The notes below the pieces were generated by a model. That model made no database searches. It was not told the origin of the DNA and was given only the letters and a program-made list of their open reading frames with translations. From Xanthobacteraceae bacterium (lineage in GTDB: Bacteria > Pseudomonadota > Alphaproteobacteria > Rhizobiales > Xanthobacteraceae), in assembly GCA_029239875.1 (NCBI GenBank), contig JARBUD010000016.1, positions 1 through 64,000 on the forward strand: a stretch of DNA of 64,000 bases, read 5' to 3'. Both the position numbers and the translations under genes were made by a program. Each line of letters opens with the position of its first letter. Position 1 is the stretch's first letter. Positions 3,977 to 63,981 of this stretch are shown in pieces.

Positions 3977-4173
3977 GTCGGTTCCTTGTCCGTCGATCGA
4001 AGGCGGGCGAAAGGCCCGGCGAAGCGGCGCGGACTATACTGAGGCGCCCGCCGATTGCAAACGGCGTCAGCACGACGCTGCGTCACGTCTGCGAAAGAGA
4101 GTAACCGGCGTTACGGTTATGCTTGTGTCGCCGGCCGCAGATGGCTATTCCGGCTCCGCCAAGGAGCTCCATC

Positions 4174-5070
4174 ATGACCCACACCTCGGACGATCTCGGC
4201 GCCGTTCTCTCCCGCATCGCCGATGCGCTGGAGCGCATCGCGCCGACGCGCGCCGCCACCGCCGACTTTGACGCCGCCGATGCCTTCGTCTGGCACGCCG
4301 ACGACAAGCGGCTGGAGCCGGTGCCGCGCGTCAACAAGGTGGAGATGGAGCTGCTCAAGGGCATCGACCGCACGCGCGACCAGCTGATGGACAACACGCT
4401 GCGCTTCGCCCGCGGCCTGCCGGCCAACAACGCGCTACTGTGGGGCGCGCGCGGCATGGGCAAGAGCTCGCTGGTCAAGGCCTCCCACGCGGCGGTCAAC
4501 GCCGACATGGGACGCGAGGGCAAGCGGCCGATCAAGCTGGTGGAGATCCACCGCGAGGACATCGAGACGCTGCCGGCGCTGATGAGCCTGATGCGGGCGT
4601 CGCAGTACCGATTCGTCGTGTTCTGCGACGACCTCTCCTTCGACGCCGACGATACCTCCTACAAGTCGCTCAAGGCGGTGCTGGAGGGCGGCATCGAGGG
4701 GCGGCCGGAGAACGTCATCTTCTACGCCACCTCCAACCGCCGGCATTTGCTGCCGCGCGACATGATGGAGAACGAGCGCTCGACCGCGATCAATCCCGGC
4801 GAGGCGGTGGAGGAGAAGGTCTCGCTGTCGGACCGTTTCGGCCTGTGGCTCGGCTTCCACAAGTGCAGCCAGGACGAGTATCTCGCTATGGTGGAGGGCT
4901 ACGTCGCCCATTTCGGCGTGCCGGTCGACGCCGAGACGCTGCGCCGCGAGGCGCTGGAATGGTCGACCACGCGCGGCGCGCGCTCGGGCCGCACCGCCTG
5001 GCAATATGTGCAGGATGTCGCGGGGCGGCTCGGCGTTTCGCTCAGCGAGCCGCCTGCCGCCCCGCGCTGA
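4174..5070 (+). CDS. DUF815 family P-loop ATPase
   Basis: A 298-residue AAA-like ATP-binding protein. The Walker A motif is GARGMGKSS at 91-99 and a Walker B-like FVVFCDDLSF lies at 147-156; ATSNRRHLLPR further on resembles a sensor-1 region. The start at 4174 is set by an AAGGAG seven bases upstream (4161-4166); an earlier in-frame ATG at 4123 lacks this. DUF815 genes sit beside yajC and the nlpD-like gene in many Hyphomicrobiales, but no biochemical role is established. It is convergent with the M23 gene that follows. Confidence 0.9.
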   Translation: MTHTSDDLGAVLSRIADALERIAPTRAATADFDAADAFVWHADDKRLEPVPRVNKVEMELLKGIDRTRDQLMDNTLRFARGLPANNALLWGARGMGKSSLVKASHAAVNADMGREGKRPIKLVEIHREDIETLPALMSLMRASQYRFVVFCDDLSFDADDTSYKSLKAVLEGGIEGRPENVIFYATSNRRHLLPRDMMENERSTAINPGEAVEEKVSLSDRFGLWLGFHKCSQDEYLAMVEGYVAHFGVPVDAETLRREALEWSTTRGARSGRTAWQYVQDVAGRLGVSLSEPPAAPR

Positions 5071-50300: not shown

Positions 50301-50486
50301 GGCGCGGCGTTTCAGCGGCGCCGACAGAGGCGGGGTTCGCGCCGGAGAATGGAATTCGAAAGACCAACCGGCATGAGAGGCTCCCTGAAATACTTCTTGT
50401 ATGTTACCGTCGGGAAAGCGCCCAAATGATGTTGGCATGGCGCTTTCCTCATGTGCCGCATGGTAGCGCGACGCTTGCCCGTTTCG

Positions 50487-50515
50487 CAACTAGCATATTT
50501 GAAATATACTAGTTG
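50487..50515. promoter_or_regulatory. 29-bp near-perfect palindrome in the mdcA/tctC divergent promoter
   Basis: CAACTAG(C)ATATTT-G-AAATAT(A)CTAGTTG: 13 of 14 base pairs match around a central G at 50501, the only mismatch being C50494/A50508. It lies 186 bases before the mdcA ATG and 71 bases before the tctC ATG, in an AT-rich island. The size and symmetry are those of a dimeric repressor site. GntR proteins of the MatR/MdcY type control malonate genes elsewhere, but the sequence is not that of their known TTGTATACAA-like sites. Confidence 0.65.
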
Positions 50516-50585
50516 AACATCATAGAGAATTGAATTACCACGGTTCCAAGGTGCGGAAACACGCGCCAATTTGGAGGAACCGACC

Positions 50586-51569
50586 ATGAAAACAGTGACC
50601 CTAGCGGGGGCAGCCCTGCTGCTCTCCACCCTCGCCGCATCCGCGTGGGAGCCGACCAAATCCGTCGAGATCATCGTGCCGTTCGGGCCCGGCGGCGCAT
50701 CCGACCAGATGGCTCGCACCATCCAGGCCATCATCCAGAAGCACGGCCTGTCGAAGGAATCCTTCATCGTCGTCAACAAGCCCGCGGCCACGGGCGGCGA
50801 GGCGATGATGGACATCAAGAAGTCGCTGCGCGATCCGCACAAGCTGATCACCACGTCGAGCACCATCTACATGACGCCGCTGGCGACCAAGCTGCCTGTG
50901 AGCTGGCAGGACTTCACGCCCGTGGCGATGGTCGCGCAGGACGAGTTCGCCCTCTGGGTAAACAATGAATCGCCCTACAAGACGCTCCCCGATCTGGCCG
51001 CAGCTGCCAAGACCGCAAGCCCGCCGCTCAAGATCGGCGGCGGCGGCTCCAAGCGCGAGGACGAGCTCATCACCTTCGGCGTGTTCTCCGAGCTGAACAC
51101 CCCGATCTCCTACATCCCCTACAAGAGCGGCGGCGAGGCTTCGACCCAGCTCGCCGGCAACCACATCGCCGCGGAAACCAACAACCCCTCGGAGGATGTC
51201 GCCAACTGGCGAGCCGGCCTCACCCGGCCGCTCTGCGTGCTGTCGCCCCAGCGCATGAGCTACAAGACGAAGATCACCGCCGACATGTCGTGGAACGACG
51301 TGCCGACCTGCGGCGAGCAGGGACTGAAGTTCAACTACAACATGCTGCGCGGCCTGTTCATGCCCGGCAACGTCACGCCGGAGCAGCAGGCCTACTACGT
51401 CGATCTGATGAAGAAGGTCGTCGAGACGCCCGAGTGGAAGGAATATCTCGAGCGCAACGCCCTGCTGCCCGACTTCCGGTCCGGCCAGGCCTATGTCGAC
51501 TTCCTCACCGCCGACGAAGCCAAGCACAAGGACCTCATGGCGAAGGCCGGCTTCCTGTCGACGAACTGA
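50586..51569 (+). CDS. tctC: Tripartite tricarboxylate transporter substrate-binding protein (TctC/Bug family)
   Basis: A 327-residue periplasmic protein with a signal peptide ending near ASA-W (about 20) and the Bug-family opening VEIIVPFGPGGASDQMAR, whose loop binds a carboxylate. PYKSGGEASTQLAGNHI is the second conserved ligand loop. GGAGGA precedes the ATG. Being divergent from the malonate decarboxylase operon, it probably captures malonate; that is an inference from context. Confidence 0.92.
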   Translation: MKTVTLAGAALLLSTLAASAWEPTKSVEIIVPFGPGGASDQMARTIQAIIQKHGLSKESFIVVNKPAATGGEAMMDIKKSLRDPHKLITTSSTIYMTPLATKLPVSWQDFTPVAMVAQDEFALWVNNESPYKTLPDLAAAAKTASPPLKIGGGGSKREDELITFGVFSELNTPISYIPYKSGGEASTQLAGNHIAAETNNPSEDVANWRAGLTRPLCVLSPQRMSYKTKITADMSWNDVPTCGEQGLKFNYNMLRGLFMPGNVTPEQQAYYVDLMKKVVETPEWKEYLERNALLPDFRSGQAYVDFLTADEAKHKDLMAKAGFLSTN

Positions 51570-51632
51570 ACCCTTCTCCGAGCACGGCGGCCTGCCCTCG
51601 CGGCGGCCGTCGTCTTCCGTCAGGAGCGACGC

Positions 51633-52130
51633 ATGTCATCCTTCGACCCATACGAGACCGAATCCGGCCTCTCCCGCCGCACGGCCGAATGCACGGTGGC
51701 CGTCATCCTCCTCGCCATCGCCGCCGGCGTCCTGTGGGACAGCTACCAGCGCGGCGCCGGCTGGAACGGCGGGCCGCAGACCGGCTTCTTTCCGGCGCGC
51801 GTCGCGTGGATCCTGCTCGCCGCCTCGGCCGCCGTCTTCTATCAGGGCCTGCGGGCGTCGGACCGCGTGCTGGTCACCTGGGTGCAGTTGCGCCAGGTCG
51901 GGCAGGTCTTCCTGCCGCTCACCCTCTATATCTTCGCCATCGACTATCTCGGCATCTATGTCGCCTCGGCAATCTTCATCGGCGGCTTCATGGCCGTGTT
52001 CGGCACGTTCCGCTGGTGGGCGATCATCGCCGCCGCGGTGCTCATCCCGCTGGTGACCTTCTGGACGTTCGAGCTTCAGTTCCAGGTGCCGCTGCCCAAG
52101 GGGCCGCTTGAAATCATGCTCGGCTACTGA
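51633..52130 (+). CDS. tctB: Tripartite tricarboxylate transporter small membrane subunit TctB
   Basis: A 165-residue protein with four membrane segments (about 20-38, 53-72, 92-112 and 120-150), the usual TctB layout, including NGGPQTGFFPARVAWILLA. It starts 63 bases after tctC and ends 11 bases before tctA. It stabilises TctA in the membrane. Confidence 0.9.
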   Translation: MSSFDPYETESGLSRRTAECTVAVILLAIAAGVLWDSYQRGAGWNGGPQTGFFPARVAWILLAASAAVFYQGLRASDRVLVTWVQLRQVGQVFLPLTLYIFAIDYLGIYVASAIFIGGFMAVFGTFRWWAIIAAAVLIPLVTFWTFELQFQVPLPKGPLEIMLGY

Positions 52131-52141
52131 GGACGCATCAG

Positions 52142-53653
52142 ATGGAAAACATCAGCCTGCTCCTCGAGGGTTTCCAGGTCGCGCTGACCTGGCACAACAT
52201 CGCCTTCATGTTCCTCGGCGTGCTGCTCGGCATCGTCGTCGGCGTGCTGCCAGGGCTCGGCGGTCCGAATGGCGTCGCCATCCTGCTGCCGCTGACCTTC
52301 AGCATGGAACCGACCAGCGCCATCATCCTGCTGACCTCGATCTATTGGGGCGCGCTGTTCGGCGGGGCCATCACCGCCGTGCTGTTCAACATTCCCGGCG
52401 AGCCCTGGTCCGTCGCCACCACCTTCGACGGCTATCCAATGGCGCAGCAGGGCCGCGCCGGCGAGGCGCTGACCGCCGCCTTCACCGCCTCCTTCGTCGG
52501 GGCGATCGCCGGCGTGGTGCTGATCACCTTCCTCGCGCCGCTGGTGGCGAAATTCGCGCTGCGCTTCGGGCCGGCGGAATTCTTCGCCGTGTTCTTCCTC
52601 ACCTTCTGCAGCTTCATCGGCATGGGCAAGGAGAACAAGGCGAAGATCGTGGTCTCGCTGTCGCTCGGGTTCCTGCTGGCCGGCGTCGGCATCGACACCA
52701 TCTCCGGCGACATGCGCATGACCTTCGGCGTCGGCGAGCTGATGAACGGGTTCGACTTCCTCGTCGTCGTCATCGGCATGTTCGGCGTGTCGGAAATCCT
52801 GCTGACGCTGGAAGAGGGGCTCGAATTCAAGGGCAAGAAGGCGCGCATAGACCCGATCGTCGTGTTGCGCACCTGGATGCAGATGCCGCTCTACTTCATG
52901 ACCTTCGTCCGCTCGTGCCTTGCCGGGATCTGGCTCGGCATCTCGCCGGGCGGCGCGGTGGCGGCGTCCTTCATGGGCTATGGCCTTGCCAAGCGCTTCT
53001 CCAGGAGGGGCAAGAAATTCGGCAGTGGCGAGATCGAGGGCGTCATCGCGCCCGAGACCGCGGCCCATGCCGCCGGCACCTCCGCCCTCCTGCCGATGCT
53101 GGCGCTCGGCATTCCGGGTTCGGCGACGGCGGCCGTGCTGCTGGGCGGGCTGATGATCTGGGGCCTGCAGCCCGGCCCCCTGCTGTTCGTCGAGCAGAAG
53201 GATTTCGTCTGGGGCCTGATCGCCTCGATGTATCTCGGCAACATGGTCGGCCTGTTCGTGGTTCTGGCGACCGTGCCGCTGTTCGCCTCGATCATGCGCA
53301 TACCGTTCGCGCTCATCGCGCCGGTCATCCTCATGGTCTGCGCGATCGGCGCGTTCACCGTCGCCAATTCCAGCTTCGACATCTGGCTGATGCTGATCTT
53401 CGGCGCGGTGGGCTATGCCTTCAAGAAGCTCGACTACCCGCTCGCCCCGATGGTGCTGGCGCTGGTGCTGGGCGACCGCGCGGAGGATGCCTTCCGCCAG
53501 GCGCTGATCGGCTCCGCGGGCGACCTGTCCGTGTTCATGGACAATGGCCTCGTCGCCACGCTGATGATCATCTCGTTCGCGCTCCTGCTGTGGAGCCCGA
53601 TCAGCGAGTTGATCGGCAGACTGCTGCGCCGCCCGGCCGTCGCCGCCGAGTGA
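52142..53653 (+). CDS. tctA: Tripartite tricarboxylate transporter large membrane subunit TctA
   Basis: A 503-residue, about 12-span permease with the TctA signatures GVLPGLGGPNGVAILLPLTF (about 36-55), SIYWGALFGGAITAVLFNIPGEP (about 66-88) and a repeat of the same pattern near PETAAHAAGTSALLPMLALGIPGS. It imports the TctC-bound acid with cations. It is the last gene before a strong terminator. Confidence 0.95.
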   Translation: MENISLLLEGFQVALTWHNIAFMFLGVLLGIVVGVLPGLGGPNGVAILLPLTFSMEPTSAIILLTSIYWGALFGGAITAVLFNIPGEPWSVATTFDGYPMAQQGRAGEALTAAFTASFVGAIAGVVLITFLAPLVAKFALRFGPAEFFAVFFLTFCSFIGMGKENKAKIVVSLSLGFLLAGVGIDTISGDMRMTFGVGELMNGFDFLVVVIGMFGVSEILLTLEEGLEFKGKKARIDPIVVLRTWMQMPLYFMTFVRSCLAGIWLGISPGGAVAASFMGYGLAKRFSRRGKKFGSGEIEGVIAPETAAHAAGTSALLPMLALGIPGSATAAVLLGGLMIWGLQPGPLLFVEQKDFVWGLIASMYLGNMVGLFVVLATVPLFASIMRIPFALIAPVILMVCAIGAFTVANSSFDIWLMLIFGAVGYAFKKLDYPLAPMVLALVLGDRAEDAFRQALIGSAGDLSVFMDNGLVATLMIISFALLLWSPISELIGRLLRRPAVAAE

Positions 53654-53664
53654 CATCGGCACAA

Positions 53665-53701
53665 GGCGGCGCTCCGTCGCTGGGCGCCGCCGGCATTTTT
53701 T
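53665..53701 (+). terminator. Rho-independent terminator of tctCBA
   Basis: GGCGGCGC (53665-53672) pairs with GCGCCGCC (53684-53691) and is followed by GGCA and six T residues (53696-53701). It starts 12 bases after the tctA stop. This is the clearest intrinsic terminator in the window and separates the malonate module from the next cluster. Confidence 0.9.
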
Positions 53702-53764: not shown

Positions 53765-53797
53765 TTGCCAGACATCAGATGCACATTTAATATGTCA
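53765..53797 (+). promoter_or_regulatory. Promoter with overlapping operator-like site before the DUF6166 gene
   Basis: TTGCCA (53765-53770), a 17-base spacer and TAATAT (53788-53793) form a sigma-70-like promoter. The -10 box lies inside TAATATGTCA (53788-53797), whose complement TGACATATTA is one base from the TGACATATCA sites found near the liv and adh genes. About 35 bases around it align, on the opposite strand, with the liv promoter region at 60521-60560. Confidence 0.55.
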
Positions 53798-53811
53798 GAT
53801 GTAGGTGGAAA

Positions 53812-54120
53812 ATGGATAGTGCCATGAAGACTTATCGCGGAGACAGGACCATCGATGGCATCGCGGTCACCGTCGATGGCAGTCCGTTGCCGGATCGCAC
53901 GGACATCAAGGAGATCAGCCGGGACGGCTTCGAATGGAGCTATGAGGGCATCGCTCCGGCGCAGCTCGCGCTCGCCATCCTGGCCGACCATTTTGGTTCC
54001 GCGTCGCTGGCGCTGCAGCACCATGAGCGCTTCATGCGCGATGTCGTCGCCAATTTCGGCAATGAATGGGAATTCACCACCGCCGACATAGACACGGCCC
54101 TCGCAGCGCAAGCGGCCTGA
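53812..54120 (+). CDS. DUF6166 domain protein
   Basis: A 102-residue cytosolic protein with the pattern YRGDRTIDGIAVTVDG... and FEWSYEGIAPAQLALAILADHFG, which I recognise as the DUF6166 family. No function is known. ATG 53812 follows AGGTGG; ATG 53824 is an alternative. The stop is six bases before the hydrolase start, so the two are probably cotranscribed. Confidence 0.75.
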   Translation: MDSAMKTYRGDRTIDGIAVTVDGSPLPDRTDIKEISRDGFEWSYEGIAPAQLALAILADHFGSASLALQHHERFMRDVVANFGNEWEFTTADIDTALAAQAA

Positions 54121-54125
54121 ATCCG

Positions 54126-54905
54126 ATGGCCCTCATCGCCACCGACGACGGCGTCCTCGAATGGATCGATGCCAATCCCGGCACGGCCCCGGCGGGCGGC
54201 TCCCTCGTTCTCCTTCACGGCATCCAGGGTACGGCGGCGACATGGGGCGATGTGGCAAGCCGCCTTGCCGACAAGCTCGGAACGAGGCGTGCGGTCATCG
54301 TGCCGAACCTGCGCGGCCGAGGCGCCTCGATGGCCCCGACCCTGCCCCACGCCTACGGCCTCGATGATTTTTCGGGCGATCTGCGGGCGGTGATAAGCAT
54401 GGCGCCCAAGCCCATCACGCTTGTCGGCTGGAGCATGGGCGTGGTGGTCACGCTCGCTTATCTCGCCCGCTATGGGGAGTTGGAGCTCGACAGCCTGGTG
54501 CTCGCCAGCGGAACGGCGCACGCGGGCGGCGAGGCGGTATGGTTCCATGCCGAAACTCTCGCGGACCTCGCTGTGGAAGCACGCGAGCGAGCGGAACGGC
54601 TGGCCCTCACATCCTACGCCTCGCCGCCGGCGGTTGCCGGTGCCTGGGCGTCTGTGCGTGCCGCCGATCTTCGCCCAACGCTCCCGCAGATCTCGTTGCC
54701 GACCCTCGTGCTGCACGGCGACCTCGACGATCAATGTCCATTGGAGCATGGCCGGCGCATCGCCTCGGCCATTCCGGGGGCGTCATTGGAGATCTGGTGG
54801 GGAAGCGGGCATAATCTGATGGCCGACGATCCGCAGCGTTTTGCTGATACCGTCCTGCGTTTCTATGCCGCTGTGCAAACAGATATCTTTGTTGCGACTC
54901 AGTGA
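54126..54905 (+). CDS. Alpha/beta hydrolase
   Basis: A 259-residue hydrolase. The oxyanion HG lies at 31-32, the nucleophile S103 in GWSMG, the acid D201 or D202 in HGDLDDQCP and H229 in GSGHNLM: a full catalytic triad. NLRGRGAS after strand 4 resembles carboxylesterases and C-C hydrolases such as 3-oxoadipate enol-lactonase. No signal peptide. The substrate is unknown; the setting with a hydroxylase, dehydrogenase and ABC importer suggests a catabolic step. Confidence 0.88.
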   Translation: MALIATDDGVLEWIDANPGTAPAGGSLVLLHGIQGTAATWGDVASRLADKLGTRRAVIVPNLRGRGASMAPTLPHAYGLDDFSGDLRAVISMAPKPITLVGWSMGVVVTLAYLARYGELELDSLVLASGTAHAGGEAVWFHAETLADLAVEARERAERLALTSYASPPAVAGAWASVRAADLRPTLPQISLPTLVLHGDLDDQCPLEHGRRIASAIPGASLEIWWGSGHNLMADDPQRFADTVLRFYAAVQTDIFVATQ

Positions 54906-54912
54906 TATCTCA
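54903..54912. promoter_or_regulatory. Operator-like site before the GntR gene
   Basis: TGATATCTCA differs by one base from TGATATGTCA, the complement of the TGACATATCA sites nearby. It overlaps the hydrolase stop codon and lies 67 bases before the GntR start, where an autoregulatory site would be expected. Confidence 0.4.
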
Positions 54913-54978
54913 ATAATGTCCTTGTAAATCACACGCCGTCGACCGTCGTCGGCGGTCTTTATCCCGCCTGGAGTTCCC

Positions 54979-55713
54979 ATGTCCCCAGCAGGCACCAAGC
55001 GCGCAACGGCACCGGCAGCGAAGAAGTCGCCGACAGGAACGCGATCCCGGCGCACCGAGAAGGTGGTCGAGGTCGAGGATGTCACCCTGACGGACCGTGC
55101 CTATCGCCTGCTGGAGGAACTGATTTCGACGCTCCAGCTTCCGCCCGGCACGGTTCTCTCCGAGCTCACCTTGGCGCAGCGGCTGAACATCGGCCGGACG
55201 CCGATCCGCGAGGCCTTGCAGCGCTTGGCGCGCGACGGGTTGGTGGTGGTGCTGCCGCGCCGTGGCGTGCTGGTCTCCGAGATAAACCTGCGTACCCAGC
55301 TTCGGTTGCTCGAGACCCGGCGCGTGCTGGAGCGGCTGATGGCGGAACTGGCGGCCGAGCGCGCCAGCGACGAGGAGTGCCAGAGCTTCGCCAAGGTCGC
55401 CGATGGCATGCGCGAGGCTGCGCAGCGCTCGGACGGCATCGAGTTCATGCGCCTGGACCGCAAGCTGAACCTCATGATCTCGGAGGCCTCGCGCAACGAG
55501 TTCGCCAGCCGCTCCATGGGCCTCATGCACGCGCTGTCGCGCCGGTTCTGGTACCAGCACTACAAGCGCGTCGCGGATCTGCCGCTGGCCGCCAAGCTGC
55601 ACTCCGAGCTCGCCGCCGCCATTGCCCAGCGCGACGGCAAGCGCGCCGCCGCGGCGTCCGACAGGCTGATCGACTACATCGAATCCTTCGCCCGCAAGAC
55701 CCTGGACGACTGA
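54979..55713 (+). CDS. GntR-family transcriptional regulator, FCD (FadR-like) type
   Basis: A 244-residue repressor-like protein. A basic 35-residue leader precedes the winged helix-turn-helix (about 36-103: LAQRLNIGRTPIREALQRLARDGLV and RRGVLVSEI), followed by an all-helical FCD ligand domain (about 108-230). Of the usual FCD metal ligands, D160 is present, but the first His of the DxxxH pattern reads Asn (LDRKLNLM), so ligand binding may differ. It separates the hydrolase from the convergent liv operon and is the only regulator in this cluster. Confidence 0.93.
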   Translation: MSPAGTKRATAPAAKKSPTGTRSRRTEKVVEVEDVTLTDRAYRLLEELISTLQLPPGTVLSELTLAQRLNIGRTPIREALQRLARDGLVVVLPRRGVLVSEINLRTQLRLLETRRVLERLMAELAAERASDEECQSFAKVADGMREAAQRSDGIEFMRLDRKLNLMISEASRNEFASRSMGLMHALSRRFWYQHYKRVADLPLAAKLHSELAAAIAQRDGKRAAAASDRLIDYIESFARKTLDD

Positions 55714-55739
55714 TCTCGGCTGCCGGCGAGGATGCGCCG

Positions 55740-56471
55740 TCAGGCAGACGCCATCTCGTCGACGTCGATCTCGCCGGCGATGACGCGCATCACCGCGCGG
55801 TCGCGCCGCGCCTGCGCCAGCGTGCCGGTGAAGATCATCTCGCCGCGCTCGATCACATAGAGCCGGTCGACATATTCCGGCACGTGGTGGACGTTGGATT
55901 CCGCCATCAGCACCGCCTCGCCCATGGCACGGATCGAGGCGACGCCCTCCGAGATCACCGGAATGATCGCCGGCGACAGTCCCTCGAACGGCTCGTCCAG
56001 CAGCAGCAGGCTCGGGTCGAGCGCCAGGGCCCGCGCCACCGACACCATCTTGCGCTCGCCGCCGGAGAGCTGCTGCCCGCCACGCGTCAGATACTGCCGC
56101 AGCTTGGGGAATACATTGAGCGAGCGCTCGACCCGCGCTTCCTCGGAAAGCGGGGACGCCCGCGTCCAGGTCGGCAAGGCGATGTTGTCGGCAACGCTCA
56201 GGTCGGCATAGACGTCGGATTCCTCCGGCGAATAGCCAATGCCGAGCTGCGCGATCTTGTAGGTCGGCAGGCCGACGAGTTCCTGCCCCTTGAAGCTGAT
56301 CGACCCCGCCACCGGCTGGCGATAGCCCATGATTGAGCGGAAGGTGGTGGTCTTGCCGGCGCCGTTGCGCCCGATCAGGCAGACCAGCTCGCCCGGCTCC
56401 ACCGTGAGGTCGAGGCCGTTGAGGATGCGGCTGCCGCCGATGTCCACCTTGAGGCCGGAGATCTTCAGCAT
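55740..56471 (-). CDS. livF: Branched-chain amino acid-type ABC transporter ATPase LivF
   Basis: A 243-residue ATPase: Walker A GRNGAGKTT (34-42), signature LSGGERKM, Walker B LLLLDEPFEGLSP with the LivF-type EGLSP. It ends the five-gene liv operon and overlaps livG by seven bases. Liv-type systems carry amino acids, but also urea, amides and aromatic acids, so the solute is open. Confidence 0.93.
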   Translation of the reverse strand: MLKISGLKVDIGGSRILNGLDLTVEPGELVCLIGRNGAGKTTTFRSIMGYRQPVAGSISFKGQELVGLPTYKIAQLGIGYSPEESDVYADLSVADNIALPTWTRASPLSEEARVERSLNVFPKLRQYLTRGGQQLSGGERKMVSVARALALDPSLLLLDEPFEGLSPAIIPVISEGVASIRAMGEAVLMAESNVHHVPEYVDRLYVIERGEMIFTGTLAQARRDRAVMRVIAGEIDVDEMASA

Positions 56472-57301
56472 GCCAGGCTCCTGTTGTTCCGGCTGTCCTG
56501 CCCCGCGAAGGCCGTGGCTTCCCCGGTCGATTTCGCCTTCGTCTGCGGCGGCTTGGTCCCGACCACGGCGGCGATCAGCGCCGGGTCCCTGAAGAAGGTC
56601 TCCGGCTTTTCGTCCGCCAGCATCGTTCCCGCCTGCAAGGCGACGATGCGGTCCGAATAGCGGGCGACCAGATCCATGTCGTGCTCGACCTGAATGATGG
56701 CGCGCACCCCGGCCTTCCGGCAGGCAGCGATCAAAAGTTCCATGATGGCGTGCTTGTCGCCGGTGGAGACGCCCGAGGTCGGCTCGTCGATGAGGATCAG
56801 TTCCGGCTTCAGGGCGAAGGCGCTGGCGACATCCAGCAGCTTCTTCTCGCCTTGCGAGAGCGCGGATGCCCGCTGGCCGAGGCGATGGCGCAGGTTGAAG
56901 ATGTCCGCCACCTCCTCCACCGCCTCATTGATCTCGCGATCGCGGCCGAGGCTGCGGAACGGGTTGCCGATGCGCTTCAGCCGCGAGGACGCCGCCACCG
57001 CCAGCGTCTCCCGCACGGTCAGCGCGGGAAAGATGTTCACGAGCTGGAAGCCCCGCGCCATGCCGCGCCGGGCAAGTTCGACCGGGCCGATGCCGCCAAT
57101 ATCGGCGCCGCGAAACTCGACCCGCCCGGACGTCGGCTTGAGCAGCCCGGTCAGCACGTTGACCAGTGTGCTCTTTCCGGCGCCGTTGGGGCCGACGATG
57201 GAGATGAACTCGCCATCGGCGATGGAGAGCGAGATATCCCTCAGCGCATGGAAGGCGCCGTAGCTCTTGCAGACCGATTGCGCAGCGAGAAGTGCCGACA
57301 T
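56465..57301 (-). CDS. livG: Branched-chain amino acid-type ABC transporter ATPase LivG
   Basis: A 278-residue ATPase with Walker A GPNGAGKST (about 36-44), signature LSQGEKK and Walker B LILIDEPTSGV, followed by the H-loop VEHDMDLV. The Gln in LSQGEKK in place of the usual Gly/Tyr, and a 20-residue C-terminal tail beyond the family end, are mild deviations. Three bases separate it from livM. Confidence 0.93.
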   Translation of the reverse strand: MSALLAAQSVCKSYGAFHALRDISLSIADGEFISIVGPNGAGKSTLVNVLTGLLKPTSGRVEFRGADIGGIGPVELARRGMARGFQLVNIFPALTVRETLAVAASSRLKRIGNPFRSLGRDREINEAVEEVADIFNLRHRLGQRASALSQGEKKLLDVASAFALKPELILIDEPTSGVSTGDKHAIMELLIAACRKAGVRAIIQVEHDMDLVARYSDRIVALQAGTMLADEKPETFFRDPALIAAVVGTKPPQTKAKSTGEATAFAGQDSRNNRSLAC

Positions 57302-57304
57302 GGT

Positions 57305-58321
57305 TCAGCTCCCGCGCTTGAAGCGGTTGAGGACATTGGAGGCGATGCCGGACAGGCCGCCGGGGAAGAAGACCACCAGCAGGATCAGCACGCTGCCCAT
57401 CACGAACCGCCAGTATTGGGTGTGCGACATCACCGCGTCCTGCAGCAACACGAAGGCGAGGCTGCCGACCACCGGGCCGGCAAACGCGCCGGAACCGCCG
57501 AGGACCGCCATGAAGACGAGATTGCCGGACTGGGTCCAATAGACGATCTCGGGATCGGCAAGGCCGATGGTGATGGCGAGGATCGCTCCTCCGACGCCGC
57601 CATAGATGCCGGAGATGACGAAGGCGGCGAGCCGCATCCGCGTGACGCGGACGCCGAGATACGACGCCTTCTGCGCATTCTCGCGGATCGCCTGCAGATG
57701 CAGGCCGAACGGCGACTGCACGATGCGCCACATCACCAGCCCGAGCACTGCAAGCAGGCCGAGCGCGTAGTAGTAGAACGGCCCGGTGAGGAAGGCGGTC
57801 TTGCCGCCCTCCGCTTCCATGCCGAACAGCAGCGGACGGAGCACACGCATGCCCTGGTCGCCACCGGTGAGCCCGTAGAACTTGTACAGGATCGAATGGA
57901 ACAGCATGCCGAAGGCCAGCGTCAGCATGCCGAAGAAGATGCGGGTATAGCGCACGCACAGGAAGCCCACCGGGATCGCGACGATGGCCGCGGCGGCGAT
58001 CGAGGCGAGCAGGATCAGCTCGAACGACAATATGCCGAGCTTCGAGGTCATCACCGCCGCCGTATAGGCGCCGATGCCGAGGAACATGGCGTGGCCGAAA
58101 GACAGCAGCCCGGTATAGCCGAACAGCAAGTTGAACCCCAGCAGGGCGATGGCGAGCCCGAAGAACGGCACCATCAGGGTCAGCGTATAGCTGGACGCGA
58201 AGAAGGGCAGGCCCGCCATCGCGACAAGGATCACGAGGAACGCCCAGAGGCCGGAAGGCCGGGCGACGGGGAAAGCGGTGGCGGGAACCACGGCGCTCTC
58301 GACGATATGGGGCGCGCTCAT
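57305..58321 (-). CDS. livM: Branched-chain amino acid-type ABC permease LivM
   Basis: A 338-residue permease of the LivM type: about nine membrane segments, with GYTGLLSFGHAMFLGIGAYTAA (about 68-89) and the EAA-like loop ENAQKASYLGVRVTRMRLAAFVISG. Its start overlaps the livH stop (58318-58321). Confidence 0.93.
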   Translation of the reverse strand: MSAPHIVESAVVPATAFPVARPSGLWAFLVILVAMAGLPFFASSYTLTLMVPFFGLAIALLGFNLLFGYTGLLSFGHAMFLGIGAYTAAVMTSKLGILSFELILLASIAAAAIVAIPVGFLCVRYTRIFFGMLTLAFGMLFHSILYKFYGLTGGDQGMRVLRPLLFGMEAEGGKTAFLTGPFYYYALGLLAVLGLVMWRIVQSPFGLHLQAIRENAQKASYLGVRVTRMRLAAFVISGIYGGVGGAILAITIGLADPEIVYWTQSGNLVFMAVLGGSGAFAGPVVGSLAFVLLQDAVMSHTQYWRFVMGSVLILLVVFFPGGLSGIASNVLNRFKRGS

Positions 58322-59199
58322 GCCATCGCCTTTCCGAACAGGCCGGCCGGACGCAGGATCAGCGCCAGGATGACGACTAGGTAGATCGACAGGATTTCCG
58401 CCTCCGGCAGCACCATGATCGCCACCGCGCGAATGAGGCCGACGATAAGCGCGCCGGCTATCGCGCCGCGCATCGAGCCGAGGCCGCCGATGACCACGAC
58501 CGCGAACGCCTCGACCACGAGCTCCACCGCCATCTCGAGCGAAGCGGCCGAGGCCGGCACGACCAGCGCGCCGCCGACCGTGCCCAGCATGCAGCCGACC
58601 GTGAAGACGGCGGCGAACACCCGGTCGGAATTCACCCCCAACCCTTCGGACATTTCGCGGTTCTCAGCCGTGGCGCGGATGATGCGCCCGGTGCGCGTGC
58701 GCTGCAGGAACAGGCCAAGCGTAACGGCAATCGCGATGCTGGCGGCGATCACCAGCAGATTGTAGGTCGGCACCCGCACGCCGAGAATCTCCGCCGTGCC
58801 ATAGGCGAGATAGGCGTTGTCGAGCGTGCGCGGGGTGGCGCCCCAAAAGAAGCGCAGAACGTCCTGAAACACCAGCAGCAGGCCGAAGGTCAGCAGGAGC
58901 TGGTGGCTCTCGTCCCGACGGTAGACCGTGCGCAGCAGCCGCTCCACCGGCAGCCCGATCAGCCCGATAGCGAGGCCGGCAAGCAGCAGCACGGGCAGGA
59001 ATGCCACGCCCGGCAGGCCGAGCGAGGTCGCGACGGCAACCGAGGTAATCGCGAAATAGGCGCCCAGGGCATAGAAGGAGCCGCAGGCAAGGTTCACGAT
59101 CTTCTGGACGCCGAACACGAGCTGGAGCCCGGCGGCGACGAGGAAGAGGACGGCGGCGTGGAAGACGCCGCCGAGGATCATGTCGACGAAGACGTTCAT
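58318..59199 (-). CDS. livH: Branched-chain amino acid-type ABC permease LivH
   Basis: A 293-residue permease with eight membrane segments, VNLACGSFYALGAYFAI near the N-terminus and the ATAENREMSEGLGVNSDRVFAAVF cytoplasmic loop that contacts the ATPase. ATG 59199 is 12 bases after the livK stop. Confidence 0.93.
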   Translation of the reverse strand: MNVFVDMILGGVFHAAVLFLVAAGLQLVFGVQKIVNLACGSFYALGAYFAITSVAVATSLGLPGVAFLPVLLLAGLAIGLIGLPVERLLRTVYRRDESHQLLLTFGLLLVFQDVLRFFWGATPRTLDNAYLAYGTAEILGVRVPTYNLLVIAASIAIAVTLGLFLQRTRTGRIIRATAENREMSEGLGVNSDRVFAAVFTVGCMLGTVGGALVVPASAASLEMAVELVVEAFAVVVIGGLGSMRGAIAGALIVGLIRAVAIMVLPEAEILSIYLVVILALILRPAGLFGKAMA

Positions 59200-59210
59200 C
59201 GCGTCGCTCC

Positions 59211-60485
59211 TCAGACCGGCAGCTTCGACGTCTTCAGCCACTCCCAGAAATCCATGCCGGGCGGCTTCTGAAGCTGGTCGGCGGTGAAGGAATCGACGGT
59301 CTTGAGCGTCGGAAAGTCGAACGAGTTCTCGTTGGTCGACAGGCCCTGATAGAAGGTCTGCTCCGCGATCTTGTCGGCGCGGAAGCGGCCGGGGCCGCCG
59401 AGGCTCTGCACTTCCTGCTTCGGAATGGCGTCGATCACCTCCTCGAGCTTGGGCCAGCGGCCGGTCGCCTTCTGCGCGGCCTCGACGCCGGCCTTGTAGG
59501 CGGCAAGCGCGAAATAGGCGCGGTCGGCCTCCCAGTTCGGGGCCTCCTTGTAGCGGGCCATGTAGTCGTCGACGAACGCCTTCTGCAGCGGCGAGGCGGT
59601 GGGCAGCGCGAAGTAGAGCGTGTTGTGCCCGAACACGATGTTCTCGGGCATGAAGCTCTTCTTGAGCTGGTTGATCTGCCAGCCGGCCGCCGGCAGAGCG
59701 AGATTGACGCCCTCGAACAATCCCGCCGCGCTGCCCTGCTTCATGAATACGGGCAGGTCGGCAAACAGCATCGAAGAGAAGATGAAGTCGGGCTTGGCCG
59801 CCTTCAGCGCCGCGACGTGCGAGGTGAGGTCCATGGTGCCGACCTTGGGCCACTGCTCGGCCACCATCTCGGCCTCGACCCCGGCGCGTTTCAGGATCTG
59901 GCGGAAGGCCTCCCAATTGTTGCGGCCGTAGGAATAGTCCGGGTTGATGCCGGCGATGCGCGTGATCTTGCCGGGGAAGTACTTCACGGCGAGCAGCGAG
60001 GACATCACCGCCTCGCACTCATTGTCGGTCGAGCGGAACACGTAGCGCGCGTCCGGCATCGCCTCCTTCACGCCGTCCTGCGTGGTGCCGTCCCACATAA
60101 TGAGGAGCGCACGCTCCTCCTCCGCGACCGGCGCGACGCCCATGCTGACGCCGGTGGAGATGAGGCCCTGCACGACGTCGACCTTTTCCTGCAGCACCAG
60201 GCGACGGAAGCGCTCGATGGTGTCCTTCGGCGAGGTCTCTTCCTCGATCACCAGTTCGATGGAGCGGCCGCCTATGCCGCCATCCTTGTTCATGCGCTCG
60301 GCAGCCCATTGGACCGCTCGAATGCCGCATTCGCCGACAGTGCCCATGGCGCCAGAGCGGGGAGCGAGAATGCCGACGCGCAACGGCGTGGACTGTGCGA
60401 TGGCCGGAGAGAAGATGCCGGGGGCGGCAGCGGCGAGACCGGCAGCACCGACCCCCCGCATCAATGTGCGGCGGCTTATGCTCAT
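59211..60485 (-). CDS. livK: ABC transporter substrate-binding protein, LivK type
   Basis: A 424-residue periplasmic binding protein with a twin-arginine signal (SISRRTLMRGVGAAGLAAAAPG) ending near AIAQ at 31. The Leu/Ile/Val-binding fold begins VGILAPRSGAMGTVGE. The insert-rich sequence differs from amino acid-binding LivJ; it may bind an amide, carboxylic acid or aromatic compound. First gene of the liv operon, so its ligand should define the system. Confidence 0.9.
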   Translation of the reverse strand: MSISRRTLMRGVGAAGLAAAAPGIFSPAIAQSTPLRVGILAPRSGAMGTVGECGIRAVQWAAERMNKDGGIGGRSIELVIEEETSPKDTIERFRRLVLQEKVDVVQGLISTGVSMGVAPVAEEERALLIMWDGTTQDGVKEAMPDARYVFRSTDNECEAVMSSLLAVKYFPGKITRIAGINPDYSYGRNNWEAFRQILKRAGVEAEMVAEQWPKVGTMDLTSHVAALKAAKPDFIFSSMLFADLPVFMKQGSAAGLFEGVNLALPAAGWQINQLKKSFMPENIVFGHNTLYFALPTASPLQKAFVDDYMARYKEAPNWEADRAYFALAAYKAGVEAAQKATGRWPKLEEVIDAIPKQEVQSLGGPGRFRADKIAEQTFYQGLSTNENSFDFPTLKTVDSFTADQLQKPPGMDFWEWLKTSKLPV

Positions 60486-60524
60486 CAGACTTCCTCCCTG
60501 CGGGTCTAACGCCCGTTACAAGTC

Positions 60525-60560
60525 TGACATATCATAAATATGCACACTGAATGTCTGCAA
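60525..60560 (-). promoter_or_regulatory. Promoter with overlapping operator-like site before livK
   Basis: On the minus strand, TTGCAG (60560-60555), an 18-base spacer and TATGAT (60536-60531) make a sigma-70-like promoter. TGATATGTCA (60534-60525), a near-palindrome, overlaps the -10 box. The livK ATG is 40 bases downstream. About 35 bases of this region match the DUF6166 promoter region on the opposite strand. Confidence 0.6.
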
Positions 60561-60720
60561 GAGGAATCTTGATTTAGATCAATTCGCCTCTACGTCAGCA
60601 CCGTGTCAAACCATTAACTCGTTGATATTCATCCGCTTCCCGAGACCCCTTCTGTTCACGCGCCTGACACAGGGCCTCTGAGCACGACGAACGGCGTTGC
60701 CTTTCGATCTGCCATGCGAT

Positions 60721-60730
60721 TGACATATCC
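60721..60730. promoter_or_regulatory. Operator-like site before the ABM-domain gene
   Basis: TGACATATCC matches nine of ten bases of the TGACATATCA sites upstream of livK and adh; it lies 68 bases before the start at 60798. The preceding T makes a TTGACA -35 match, so the site may also be part of a promoter. The rest of the 60561-60797 stretch shows no gene. Confidence 0.4.
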
Positions 60731-60797
60731 ATGGTCGGTCTGGTCTGATTTCATGTCAGCCGCCGGCGTGCCGTGCGCTGCAGAGGGAGCCGCTGCC

Positions 60798-61157
60798 ATG
60801 ATCGCTGTCATTTTCGAGGTATGGCCGGCGGAGGGCGAGCGGCAACATTATCTCGACATCGCCGCCGAGTTGCGCGCCGAGCTGGTGCTGGTCGATGGCT
60901 TCATTTCCATCGAGCGCTTCCAGAGCCTGACCAATCCCGACAAGATGCTGTCGCTGTCCTTCTGGCGTGACGAGGACGCGGTCCGGCAATGGCGCAACCT
61001 GCCCAATCACCGGATCGCACAGGCCAAGGGCCGCGCCGGCGTGTTCCGCGACTATCGCCTGCGCATCGCCTCCGTGGTCCGCGACTACGGCCTGACCGAG
61101 CGTGACGAGGCGCCCGGCGACAGCCGGCGGGCGCATAATCGCACCTTGCCGGTCTAG
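60798..61157 (+). CDS. Antibiotic biosynthesis monooxygenase (ABM) fold protein
   Basis: A 119-residue ferredoxin-like fold protein: VIFEVWPAEGERQHYLDIAAEL, DGFISIERF and LSFWRDEDAVRQWRNLPNHRIAQAKGR follow the ABM pattern shared by small cofactor-free oxygenases and heme-degrading IsdG-like proteins. ATG 60798 has GGGAG eight bases upstream. Convergent with the alcohol dehydrogenase gene. Its role is unknown; many ABM proteins assist oxidation steps or bind flavin or heme. Confidence 0.8.
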   Translation: MIAVIFEVWPAEGERQHYLDIAAELRAELVLVDGFISIERFQSLTNPDKMLSLSFWRDEDAVRQWRNLPNHRIAQAKGRAGVFRDYRLRIASVVRDYGLTERDEAPGDSRRAHNRTLPV

Positions 61158-61168
61158 CCGCCGCCCGC

Positions 61169-62278
61169 TCAGAACATCACGACGCTGCGGATGGTCTCGC
61201 CGCGCTTGAGTGCGCCGAAGCCGTCGTTGATCTCATCCAGCGCGATGCGGCGGGAAATCATCTCGTCGAGCTTCAGACGCCCGTCGAGATAGGCCCGCGC
61301 CAGCAGCGGAAAGTCCCGGCGCGGCCTTGCACCCCCATAGGAGGAACGGCGGATCCGTTTCTCGCCCATCAGCGAGCCCCAGCGAAAGGCCACATCCTTC
61401 GCGACGTCGATCTTGCCGAGCCAGATCACCTCGCCGCCCGGCCGCACGGCCTCGGCGCTGACACGGAACGCCGCGAGGCTGCCGGCCGATTCCATCACCA
61501 CATCCGCCCCGCGCCCGCCGGTGGCGTCCCGCGCGATTTGCGCCGCATCCTGCCGGGCGGCGTTGACCAGCGTGGTAGCCCCCAGCGCGGAGGCCAGCGA
61601 GAGCTTGTCGTCGTTGAGGTCGACCGCGATGATGTTCTCCGCGCCCGCCAACCGGGCACCCTGCACGGCCGCGAGCCCTACCGCGCCGCAGCCGATCACC
61701 ATCACCGTGTCGCCGTGCCCTATCGACGCGACATTCATCGCCGCTCCCGCCCCGGTCATGATCCCGCATCCGATCAGGCAGGCGCGATCGAACGGAATCT
61801 CGCGCGGCACCGGGATCGCCTGCTGGTCCGGCACGATGCAATATTCCCCAAACGCCCCGAGAAACATCAATTGCTGCAACGGCCGGCCATCGGCGAGCCG
61901 CGAGCTCGGCTCGCCATGGAACGACATCGCCTTCGGTCCCTGCTCGAGATAGCCCTCGCACAGGATCGGCAAGGCGCGGTCGCAATAGAAGCAGCCACCG
62001 CAATGCGGGTTCCATGACAGCACGACATGGTCGCCGACCTTCACGCCGCGCGCCTGAGGCCCGACCTGTTCGACGATGCCGGCCGCCTCGTGCCCCAGCA
62101 CGATCGGCATGGGATAGCGCAGCCCGCCCTCGATGACCTCCAGGTCGGTGTGGCAGAGCCCGGCCGCCTTGATCCGCACCAGCACGTCCGCAGCGCGCAG
62201 CGGTTCGGCGGTCACCGTCTCGATCGACAATGGCTGGTGCGCGCCGTGAAGGATCGCCGCCCTGTAGCTCAAACTCAT
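61169..62278 (-). CDS. Zinc-dependent alcohol dehydrogenase, long-chain/class III-like
   Basis: A 369-residue medium-chain dehydrogenase. Catalytic zinc ligands C42, H63 (with E64) and C171 are present, and the structural zinc has the exact Cx2Cx2Cx7C (C93, C96, C99, C107). The Rossmann motif GCGAVG (196-201) with D220 points to NAD. Closest in style to formaldehyde/aryl-alcohol dehydrogenases (Adh class III); it should oxidise a primary alcohol made nearby, perhaps by the hydroxylase at 62494. Confidence 0.92.
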   Translation of the reverse strand: MSLSYRAAILHGAHQPLSIETVTAEPLRAADVLVRIKAAGLCHTDLEVIEGGLRYPMPIVLGHEAAGIVEQVGPQARGVKVGDHVVLSWNPHCGGCFYCDRALPILCEGYLEQGPKAMSFHGEPSSRLADGRPLQQLMFLGAFGEYCIVPDQQAIPVPREIPFDRACLIGCGIMTGAGAAMNVASIGHGDTVMVIGCGAVGLAAVQGARLAGAENIIAVDLNDDKLSLASALGATTLVNAARQDAAQIARDATGGRGADVVMESAGSLAAFRVSAEAVRPGGEVIWLGKIDVAKDVAFRWGSLMGEKRIRRSSYGGARPRRDFPLLARAYLDGRLKLDEMISRRIALDEINDGFGALKRGETIRSVVMF

Positions 62279-62325
62279 CGAATGCTCCCCGTGCCCCCGG
62301 CGCGTCGGCGACCGGCGAACGTTAA

Positions 62326-62335
62326 TGACATATCA
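62326..62335. promoter_or_regulatory. Operator-like site before the alcohol dehydrogenase gene
   Basis: TGACATATCA, identical to the site before livK, lies 48 bases upstream of the adh ATG in the divergent adh/hydroxylase promoter region. Confidence 0.5.
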
Positions 62336-62390
62336 ACGACACATCATGCTGACGGCTCGATGCCGGACCCAAGTTCCGCCATCAAGGCGC

Positions 62391-62419
62391 TTGCCAACTA
62401 ATGTAACACTGATATGTTA
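62391..62419 (+). promoter_or_regulatory. Promoter with overlapping operator-like site before the hydroxylase gene
   Basis: TTGCCA (62391-62396), 16 bases, TATGTT (62413-62418). The -10 box lies within TGATATGTTA (62410-62419), one base from TGATATGTCA. This is the same TTGC-type -35 box and -10/operator overlap seen before DUF6166 and livK. Confidence 0.55.
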
Positions 62420-62493: not shown

Positions 62494-63285
62494 ATGGAAC
62501 TCGCCGTCAGTGCCATGACCGAACGTCAGAGGAAATACCGGTCCACGTATCGCGAGCGCGTGGCCGGCTGGTACAATGGATGGCTGCATATCGCCGTCAT
62601 CTACACGATCGGCTTCACGGCGCTCTATGTGTACATCTCGAATCTGAAGTCGGTTCAGTGGTGGGAATGGCTGATCATTCCCATCGTGTTTCTGTTCTGC
62701 AATTTCTTCGAATGGGCGCTGCATCGCTACGTCATGCATCGGCCCTCGCGCATCCCGCTGCTGCGCGCGGTCTACAACCGCCACACGCTGATGCATCACC
62801 AGTTCTTCACCGAAGAGGAGATGCGCTTCGCCGACCACCACGACTGGCGCGTCACCTTCTTCCCGCCCTATGCGCTGGTGACCTTCACGCTGATGTCGAT
62901 CCCAGGCGCCGTCGTGCTGTCCTATCTGGTCTCGGCCAACGTGGCGTGGCTGTTCATCATCACCACGACCTCGGTCTATCTGCTCTACGAGTTCATGCAT
63001 TTCTGCACGCACATCGACGAGAACTGGTTCGTGCGCAACGTGCCGTTCATCAACACCATTCGCCGTCACCACGCCGCCCATCACAACCAGTCGATCATGA
63101 TGGAGCGCAACATGAACCTCACCTTCCCGGTGATGGATTGGCTGTTCGGCACGTCGGACCTCAACCGGGGCCTGCTCGGCCATCTCTTCAATGGCTACGA
63201 CACCCGCTACGTGAAGCAGGACATGCGCAAGACCTCGCGCACTCCCAGGCCGGAAGCGTCATTGGCGCAACAGCCGGCCGAATGA
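62494..63285 (+). CDS. Membrane hydroxylase, fatty acid hydroxylase/sterol desaturase superfamily
   Basis: A 263-residue di-iron membrane oxygenase. The His clusters are all there: HRYVMH (77-82), HTLMHH (97-102) and RRHHAAHH (190-197), plus HFCTH (169-173). About four membrane segments (33-49, 58-74, 125-145, 150-170). TAAGGAGG lies ten bases before the ATG. The family hydroxylates lipids, sterols or hydrocarbons with O2; the substrate is unknown, and the divergent adh gene is a natural partner for the alcohol formed. Confidence 0.88.
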   Translation: MELAVSAMTERQRKYRSTYRERVAGWYNGWLHIAVIYTIGFTALYVYISNLKSVQWWEWLIIPIVFLFCNFFEWALHRYVMHRPSRIPLLRAVYNRHTLMHHQFFTEEEMRFADHHDWRVTFFPPYALVTFTLMSIPGAVVLSYLVSANVAWLFIITTTSVYLLYEFMHFCTHIDENWFVRNVPFINTIRRHHAAHHNQSIMMERNMNLTFPVMDWLFGTSDLNRGLLGHLFNGYDTRYVKQDMRKTSRTPRPEASLAQQPAE

Positions 63286-63342: not shown

Positions 63343-63738
63343 ATGAGTGCCATAGAGCCCAATATCACGTCCCTGCTTTGGTTCGCCCTGTTCTGGACAT
63401 TGTGCTGCATCGGTTTCCTCGCGCTATCGGGCTCGTTCCCGCTCAGTGTCGCGCGGGAGCGCGGCCGGGCCTCGAACGCGGCGCTTGCGATCTTCAATGG
63501 CGGGCTGATGGCGGTCCTCGCCGCCCTGACGCTTGCCTATGGCTATGTCGAGCTGCGCATTTCCACCCTGATCGTCGTCATGGGGCTGGCCTTCCTTTTC
63601 GCGCCGGCCTCGTTCGAGATCTGGCCCGAGCGTTGGCGCGACGGACGCGGCCTGCTTGCCACGCTGCTCGTGTTGCAGGTCGTCGCCATCACCGCGCTGT
63701 ACCAGGTCGGCAGCGGCCTGCTCGACCCCGTCAGCTGA
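63343..63738 (+). CDS. Hypothetical four-span membrane protein
   Basis: A 131-residue protein with about four hydrophobic helices (about 11-30, 45-67, 74-92, 103-120) and a charged loop at SVARERGRASN. CAAGGAG precedes the ATG. I do not recognise the family. It lies 57 bases after the hydroxylase and probably shares its transcript; it could be an electron-transfer or assembly partner, which is only a guess. Confidence 0.7.
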   Translation: MSAIEPNITSLLWFALFWTLCCIGFLALSGSFPLSVARERGRASNAALAIFNGGLMAVLAALTLAYGYVELRISTLIVVMGLAFLFAPASFEIWPERWRDGRGLLATLLVLQVVAITALYQVGSGLLDPVS

Positions 63739-63789: not shown

Positions 63790-63981
63790 ATGCCGACGTT
63801 TGTGAAAGTGACCATCTCTCTGATCGTGATACTTGTCGCGGCTGCGGGCTATGCCCTGCAAGCGCATCTCGGACAGACCGGACCAAAGTACGCGGTCATA
63901 TTCCTCGGGATCTTCATGGTCGTGGCCATGTGGATGTTCCCCGAAGTGACGCGTAAGGAAACCAGGAAGAAAGCTTCCTGA
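63790..63981 (+). CDS. Small hypothetical membrane protein, 63 residues
   Basis: Two hydrophobic helices (about 5-22 and 33-51) and a basic tail (TRKETRKKAS). GGAG lies nine bases upstream of the ATG. It follows the four-span protein by 51 bases and reads as the third member of a hydroxylase operon. No family recognised. Confidence 0.6.
   Translation: MPTFVKVTISLIVILVAAAGYALQAHLGQTGPKYAVIFLGIFMVVAMWMFPEVTRKETRKKAS

Follow-up and report, generated by a model that had tools for sequence, protein, structure and literature searches.

We analyzed a window of 64,000 nucleotides (positions 1 to 64,000 of contig JARBUD010000016.1, assembly GCA_029239875.1) from a Xanthobacteraceae bacterium, in which a catabolic gene cluster carries six exact or one-mismatch copies of the near-palindromic 10-mer TGAYATRTCA together with a gene for a GntR-family FCD regulator, the presumed binder of these sites.

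The gene cluster and its six palindromic sites

The genes for a DUF6166 protein (53812..54120; Pfam PF19663), an alpha/beta hydrolase (54126..54905; assigned by Pfam) and the GntR regulator (54979..55713; PF00392 and PF07729) lie on the plus strand and are followed on the minus strand by an ABC transporter operon, livF, livG, livM, livH and livK (55743..60485), which is headed by livK (59214-60485) and conserved as a block in relatives. The name livK stems from a Pfam match (periplasmic binding protein), and those of the other four genes from the initial annotation and their positions. Further downstream are an ABM-domain monooxygenase-like gene (60798..61157, plus strand; PF03992), the zinc-dependent alcohol dehydrogenase gene adh (61169..62278, minus strand; assigned by Pfam, with the best NCBIfam match, TIGR03989, under its cut-off) and the gene for a membrane hydroxylase of the fatty acid hydroxylase/sterol desaturase family, FAH (62494..63285, plus strand; PF04116). 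The GntR protein scored 62 bits against PF00392 and 77.4 bits against PF07729, each over the cut-off, and is classified as a GntR winged-helix protein with an FCD domain; its structure model had a mean predicted local distance difference test score (pLDDT) of 81.9. FAH exceeded the cut-off of PF04116 (36.2 bits against 31), which places it in that family, and 13 His columns were invariant among 18 sequences, including H77, H82, H97, H101, H102, H192, H193, H196 and H197.

All six sites listed in the initial annotation were present, and they were the sole matches to TGAYATRTCA with at most one mismatch in the 64 kb, against a mean of 1.48 matches in shuffled sequences, 1 of 100 of which reached six. 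The putative operator before the DUF6166 gene (TAATATGTCA, 53788..53797) lies over the -10 box of the promoter TTGCCA-17-TAATAT (53765-53793), and the one before FAH (TGATATGTTA, 62410..62419) lies over that of TTGCCA-16-TATGTT (62391-62418), both promoters being found by a consensus scan. A degenerate second box (62399..62408) is located 11 bp upstream of the FAH operator. The putative operator before livK, an exact TGACATATCA (60525..60534), also covers a -10 box, that of TTGCAG-18-TATGAT on the minus strand. The earlier claim of three sites over -10 boxes behind TTGC-type -35 boxes thus stood for DUF6166 and FAH by the scan, and for livK by eye, as the scan did not detect the livK promoter. 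Another exact TGACATATCA precedes adh (62326..62335), and a putative weaker operator, TGATATCTCA, precedes gntR (54903..54912). The last one, TGACATATCC, stands before the ABM gene (60721..60730). This gene most likely starts at 60798, which is preceded by the ribosome-binding-site-like GAGGGAG and is the position from which the relatives align, so that the site is intergenic; an ATG at 60714 would place the site within the open reading frame.

When scored with a position weight matrix (PWM) derived from 55 sites that had first been picked out with the 10-mer, the six sites ranked first to sixth in the window (FAH, 22.1; livK, 20.9; DUF6166, 19.9; adh, 17.7; gntR, 16.5; ABM, 13.7), and the degenerate box at 62399 ranked seventh (9.2). 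Since the matrix sites already matched the 10-mer, this ranking is partly circular, and we set it aside as a proof of the window sites.

The whole genome (5.07 Mb) contained 51 places matching TGAYATRTCA with at most one mismatch, genic and intergenic places pooled, versus 20 for the reversed pattern. The enrichment proposed in the initial annotation was recovered, as six of the 51 fall in the 8.6 kb of the cluster; the two exact copies of the genome, at 60525 and 62326, both belong to the cluster. The 45 places outside, spread over ~5.06 Mb, give an expectation of 0.08 per 8.6 kb, and by our arithmetic the Poisson chance of six is ~3e-10, a figure that ignores the choice of the motif after the sites had been seen. 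The real test is conservation in relatives.

Conservation of the putative operator at operon heads

We fetched 20 regions containing relatives of the GntR gene, two of which (L042 and L046) are shortened by contig ends. A site with at most one mismatch was found before FAH or livK in 19 of them, and the sites were kept while liv, adh, FAH, DUF6166 and gntR varied in order and direction; one region (L052) has a site before FAH, not before livK. Among the best 80 of 263 FAH loci in named genomes, which belong to Xanthobacter, Ancylobacter, Afipia, Bradyrhizobium, Methylobacterium, Skermanella, Reyranella, Paracoccus, Roseovarius and other genera, 79 possess a site within 320 bp upstream of FAH, and the remaining locus (L110) carries an exact site at -422. 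A site within 320 bp was likewise present in 90 of 91 distinct loci, i.e., 100 fetched loci minus seven near-duplicates and two without FAH. The motif is thus kept across many genera, and the conservation in orthologous promoters anticipated earlier was observed. A motif-free count of 8-mers in 59 non-redundant 300-bp regions upstream of FAH pointed to the same element: ATATATCA was the commonest (38 regions versus 1.35 at random), followed by ACTGATAT (29 versus 1.00) and CTGATATA (28 versus 1.05), the random means being taken from 20 sets of random stretches drawn from the same loci.

The logo of 59 aligned FAH sites reads CTGATATRTCAG(A/T), and the motif extends past the 10-mer as CTGAYATRTCAG. 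Position 3 of the 10-mer was A in all of the 59 sites, a set limited from the outset to sequences departing from the 10-mer at no more than one position. A second half-box appeared in an 11-bp register, with T at -11 (41/59), A at -9 (40/59) and T at -8 (50/59). The putative operator lies on the core promoter or next to it, and many copies are accompanied by a half-box at a distance of 11 bp; in the window it covers the -10 box at FAH, DUF6166 and livK, and in other clades it was read by eye just past the -10 box or between the -35 and -10 boxes. Individual operators of the window were retraced in close loci as well. The DUF6166 operator occupies the same place in L034-L036, with TTTAATATGTTA in L033; the livK promoter is conserved in L033-L036; L033 carries TTGACATATTAAC at the place of the adh operator; and the flank of the gntR site is still conserved in L033-L036.

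We then compared operon heads with internal genes over all cluster genes of the 91 loci. Heads were recognised by a gap of 180 bp, with only the genes of the cluster itself taken into account, and some of them may therefore be operon-internal behind unlisted genes. Sites were found at 191 of 294 heads and before 29 of 319 internal genes, and 16 of the latter 29 were FAH genes with another gene closely before them. The sites therefore favour operon heads; by gene, they stood at the heads of FAH (74/74), the MFS transporter (28/30), livK (24/26), adh (8/11), ABM (5/8) and panB (5/12). Sites at the heads of transport and enzyme units with a regulator gene nearby, as observed here, are the arrangement predicted for a local catabolic regulon.

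Linkage of the motif to the GntR clade

In 200 relative genomes, including the one studied here, FAH (E<1e-60) and GntR (E<1e-56, a threshold chosen after viewing the list, the next match being 5.2e-56) occurred together in 21; FAH alone was found in one (G076, 79% complete) and GntR alone in another (G151). The GntR gene was present in 71 of the 80 named FAH loci. In eight of the distinct FAH loci no GntR gene was found, and seven of these reach a contig end near the cluster. The helix GRTP[IV]REAL was found in 19 of 20 aligned GntR sequences.

The 33 GntR places found in these genomes include 12 that do not belong to FAH clusters, of which eight have a strong motif, three a weaker or altered palindrome and one none. 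None of the genomes holding the eight strong copies (PWM 21.0-26.7) has an FAH match at E<=1e-60. In four of them (L174-L177; GntR identity 42-48%), CTGAYATRTCAG scores 21.0-23.2 and lies ~1.7-1.8 kb upstream of GntR, with an acetamidase/formamidase-family gene between the motif and GntR in L174, the one annotated locus of the four. In the other four (L196-L199), copies scoring 22.9-26.7 stand close to GntR, and the neighbours include a P450, a glyoxalase/dioxygenase-like protein and a DHDPS and DAO pair. The altered palindromes CGATATATCG, TAATATATTA and TAATATACTA are directly before GntR (L200, L202 and L203). In a simulated control of 300 stretches of 14 kb with the composition of the window, the best score was 6.6 on average and 17.9 at most. 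As the motif accompanies GntR relatives in genomes lacking FAH, it points to the GntR protein, and we regard these relatives outside FAH clusters as the strongest evidence tying the motif to that protein.

Altogether, the six sites are very probably docking sites of the neighbouring GntR-type protein. Their conservation, position and linkage to the GntR clade are best explained, and we hold this with considerable confidence, if the sites are operators through which the GntR-FCD protein (54979) represses the hydroxylase, transporter, dehydrogenase and DUF6166 units. A GntR dimer would bind the palindrome CTGATATRTCAG, which by lying over the -10 box, just past it or between the -35 and -10 boxes would block RNA polymerase at the heads of the units; the presence of the operator at all three promoter positions makes a repressor the best explanation. 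The half-box 11 bp away would allow two dimers, or a tetramer, to sit on one face of the DNA. Weaker boxes were also seen 21 bp from the main operator, on one or both sides, in L174-L177, and the two spacings suggest more than one dimer per DNA face. A small molecule, likely an acid or a pathway product, would act as inducer and release the protein.

It is rather improbable, in our judgment, that the GntR protein binds these sites chiefly as an activator, or works both ways. In a strain deleted for hypR, which encodes an FCD regulator, one promoter is reported to have lost activity (PMC6608401), and in Methylobacterium some sites stand over 280 bp upstream of FAH. However, many sites are on or adjoin the core promoter, and the distant Methylobacterium sites themselves sit, as read by eye, between a TTGACA-like -35 and a -10-like box. 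We consider it very unlikely that the sites are conserved promoter elements, such as extended -10 boxes; several do cover a -10 box and are AT-rich within a GC-rich genome, but they are palindromic, their position relative to the -35 and -10 boxes differs by clade (read by eye), they occur near GntR relatives in genomes without FAH, and symmetric variants exist (CGATATATCG and TAATATATTA). Least credible is a different regulator encoded elsewhere with GntR as a passenger gene, for which L150 speaks by carrying a site without GntR nearby, but GntR (71/80 loci) is the sole regulator among the named open reading frame families present in at least five of the 80 loci (several families of 5-8 loci being unannotated), and the motif accompanies GntR relatives amid other neighbours (acetamidase/formamidase family, P450, glyoxalase/dioxygenase-like, DHDPS and DAO).

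Several observations weigh against the operators of a GntR repressor proposed here, besides the circularity of the PWM ranking. The sites, their conservation, their placing and their linkage to the GntR clade are seen in the sequence; binding, as the initial annotation cautioned, is inferred, and so are repression, the inducer and the oligomer. The site in front of gntR, on which the initial annotation drew, does exist but is weaker than was implied: it opens with the TGA stop codon of the hydrolase gene (end at 54905), so that three of its letters are not free, and L037 and L039 retain just AGTGATAT of it. Across the loci, sites were found before just 18 of 68 DUF6166 heads and 27 of 63 gntR heads. 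One GntR relative (L047, 58% identity) has neither the cluster nor a site, and in L150, a locus of 20.8 kb with long flanks, a site is present and no GntR was detected. L202 and L203 are not wholly independent contexts, as each has an FAH cluster, with a separate GntR gene, ~10 kb away; the simulated stretches copied the composition of the window, and L199 scores 19.4 also away from its GntR. Exact copies of TGATATRTCA also stand alone in the genus, and such isolated copies are mostly background. Finally, four of the 40 outside genome places that were scored (of 45) beat the weakest window site (13.7), namely C62:192051 (18.8, the best), C19:72511 (16.1), C64:5302 (15.7) and C30:12679 (14.1). 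Targets outlying from the cluster are thus possible. The single candidate regulon of the initial annotation is supported by the concentration of the sites, their conservation and the GntR linkage, and its restriction to the cluster is not proven.

We also tried the rule that any exact TGATATRTCA is a site, and it failed: among 18 loci of the genus with a lone exact copy (L178-L195), 16 had no GntR-like match in their stretch. Of the other two, L192 has a GntR-like match (E 1e-19) more than 4 kb from the motif copy, with no GRTP helix by pattern, and L194 has an exact copy at 5390 and a weak match at 4033-4857 (E 9e-9), ~0.5 kb off and likewise without the GRTP helix. In a further genome (G014, L173), TGATATATCA occurs three times, at 5161, 10976 and 15633 (~10.5 kb), around a 30%-identical FCD regulator with the GRTP helix, which is suggestive only.

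Known FCD regulators and the wider system

PDB entry 6z74, which we take to be Atu1419 of Agrobacterium fabrum, was among the sequence relatives of the GntR protein (E 1.7e-11). Atu1419 is an FCD GntR repressor of the VanR group acting on a catabolic cluster, is a tetramer and has methylene-tetrahydrofolate as its effector (PMC7797058). The system described here is likewise alphaproteobacterial, with an FCD GntR gene near a catabolic cluster whose repression is predicted; its 10-bp palindromes lie, judging by sequence only, over the -10 box or between the -35 and -10 boxes, as in Atu1419, and both systems have a degenerate second palindrome, which Atu1419 binds. In the Atu1419 palindrome ATGTATACAT, replacing G3 by A, together with C8 by T, abolished binding (PMC7797058). 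The operators here differ from it in having G as the second base and A as the third, and thus lack the essential G3. As that very change abolishes Atu1419 binding, the clade studied here should read a different base pattern, though the Arg-Thr helix pair is kept.

The FadR subfamily binds the consensus TKGT/ACMA, with weaker half-sites 7-12 nt from the site centre (Suvorova 2015, PMC4494728). The operators here resemble it in being short AT-rich palindromes served by a GntR protein with an FCD domain. They differ from it at the GT/AC pairs, where A and T stand in place of G and C, as seen in the logo and the 8-mers. At the positions that we take to be 28 and 40 of the helix-turn-helix, following the FadR numbering, the window GntR has Leu63 and Pro75. 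None of the 20 aligned GntR sequences has Arg in the column equivalent to Leu63. An Arg at position 28 has been linked to G, and a Pro at position 40 avoids G/C; BioR, a FadR-subfamily GntR protein with the consensus TTATMKATAA, is off the GT/AC rule (PMC4494728). The present site shares that departure with BioR and has a different consensus. As exceptions such as BioR are described, the missing GT/AC core is a variant and not an exclusion from the FadR subfamily. HypR of Streptomyces coelicolor, an FCD GntR repressor acting over the -10 region, recognizes CTNTGC(A/C)ATGTCAC (PMC6608401); its domain and site position are like those here, and its motif is different. In sequence terms, the operator departs from the FCD GT/AC rule at the base that is essential in Atu1419, and this departure makes a switch of DNA specificity testable.

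FAH is followed by hyp131, a gene for a small hydrophobic protein of 131 aa (63343..63738, plus strand) with no match in a Pfam search, and by hyp64 (63790..63981, plus strand), encoding a hydrophobic protein of 63 aa, for which 90 of the 91 distinct FAH loci gave a tblastn match (E<=0.01). The two small hydrophobic proteins (131 and 63 aa) trailing FAH suggest a membrane complex. FAH, hyp131, hyp64 and DUF6166 recur together across loci; among the 100 fetched loci, duplicates included, DUF6166 was found in 96, hyp131 in 81 and the alpha/beta hydrolase in 13. Presence of the following genes in the 91 loci, some of which are cut, was judged by our own identity thresholds. We found adh in 56, panB in 22 (e.g., L108, 11864-12760; L050, 13293-14186; L134) and neither in 13, never both; similarly, livK was found in 31, an MFS transporter in 30 and neither in 30, never both. 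A search of 20 genomes for panB-family genes exceeding the cut-off gave at least two in 13/13 with a cluster panB and one in 7/7 without; the cluster panB is thus an extra copy.

As a tentative proposal, and one that we regard as doubtful, the operator may mark an undescribed oxygen-dependent catabolic system across Alphaproteobacteria, in which FAH, the two small membrane proteins and DUF6166 would hydroxylate an imported acid at a methyl group, giving CH2OH, which would then be processed either by the zinc dehydrogenase or through a retro-aldol reaction of a dedicated second PanB; the regulator clade would read shifted-guanine operators and perhaps respond to an intermediate that is an acid or a one-carbon compound. 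On general chemical grounds, pivalate, pantoate/pantothenate, trimethylpyruvate and N-methyl compounds came into consideration as substrates, but no result supports any of them and none is claimed. Our literature search returned no paper mentioning DUF6166 and none combining sterol desaturase, GntR and ketopantoate hydroxymethyltransferase; among the matches listed for papers containing TGATATATCA, none concerned a GntR operator by its title or the opening of its abstract. In Mimosa symbionts, a 'fatty acid hydroxylase' is preceded by a nod-box (PMC5789663), a case set beside FAH by description only. On the reading proposed here, a run of uncharacterised genes becomes one defined regulon with a transferable motif, and the targets of the regulator clade become predictable in many alphaproteobacteria. 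The recurring partners, i.e., two enzymes never sharing a locus and several transporter types, narrow the substrate search for an unstudied membrane hydroxylase.

On the other side, the cluster adjoins a malonate decarboxylase alpha gene and a tct transporter (48642-53653); the former and tctC were assigned by Pfam, and tctB and tctA were named by position. No motif site with at most one mismatch occurs among these genes. The same neighbours are also present in L033 and L037-L039, and mdcA in L125. A terminator-like hairpin (53665-53691) 3' of tctA would set the tct genes apart from the DUF6166 unit. Upstream of the livK promoter lies the palindrome TTGATTTAGATCAA (60569..60582), an FNR/FixK-like box. 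Allowing up to one mismatch, we found it in nine livK promoters (two of them duplicates) among the 34 of the fetched loci, and it is conserved in livK promoters of the Ancylobacter/Xanthobacter type. Oxygen or redox control may thus be layered onto the livK promoter.

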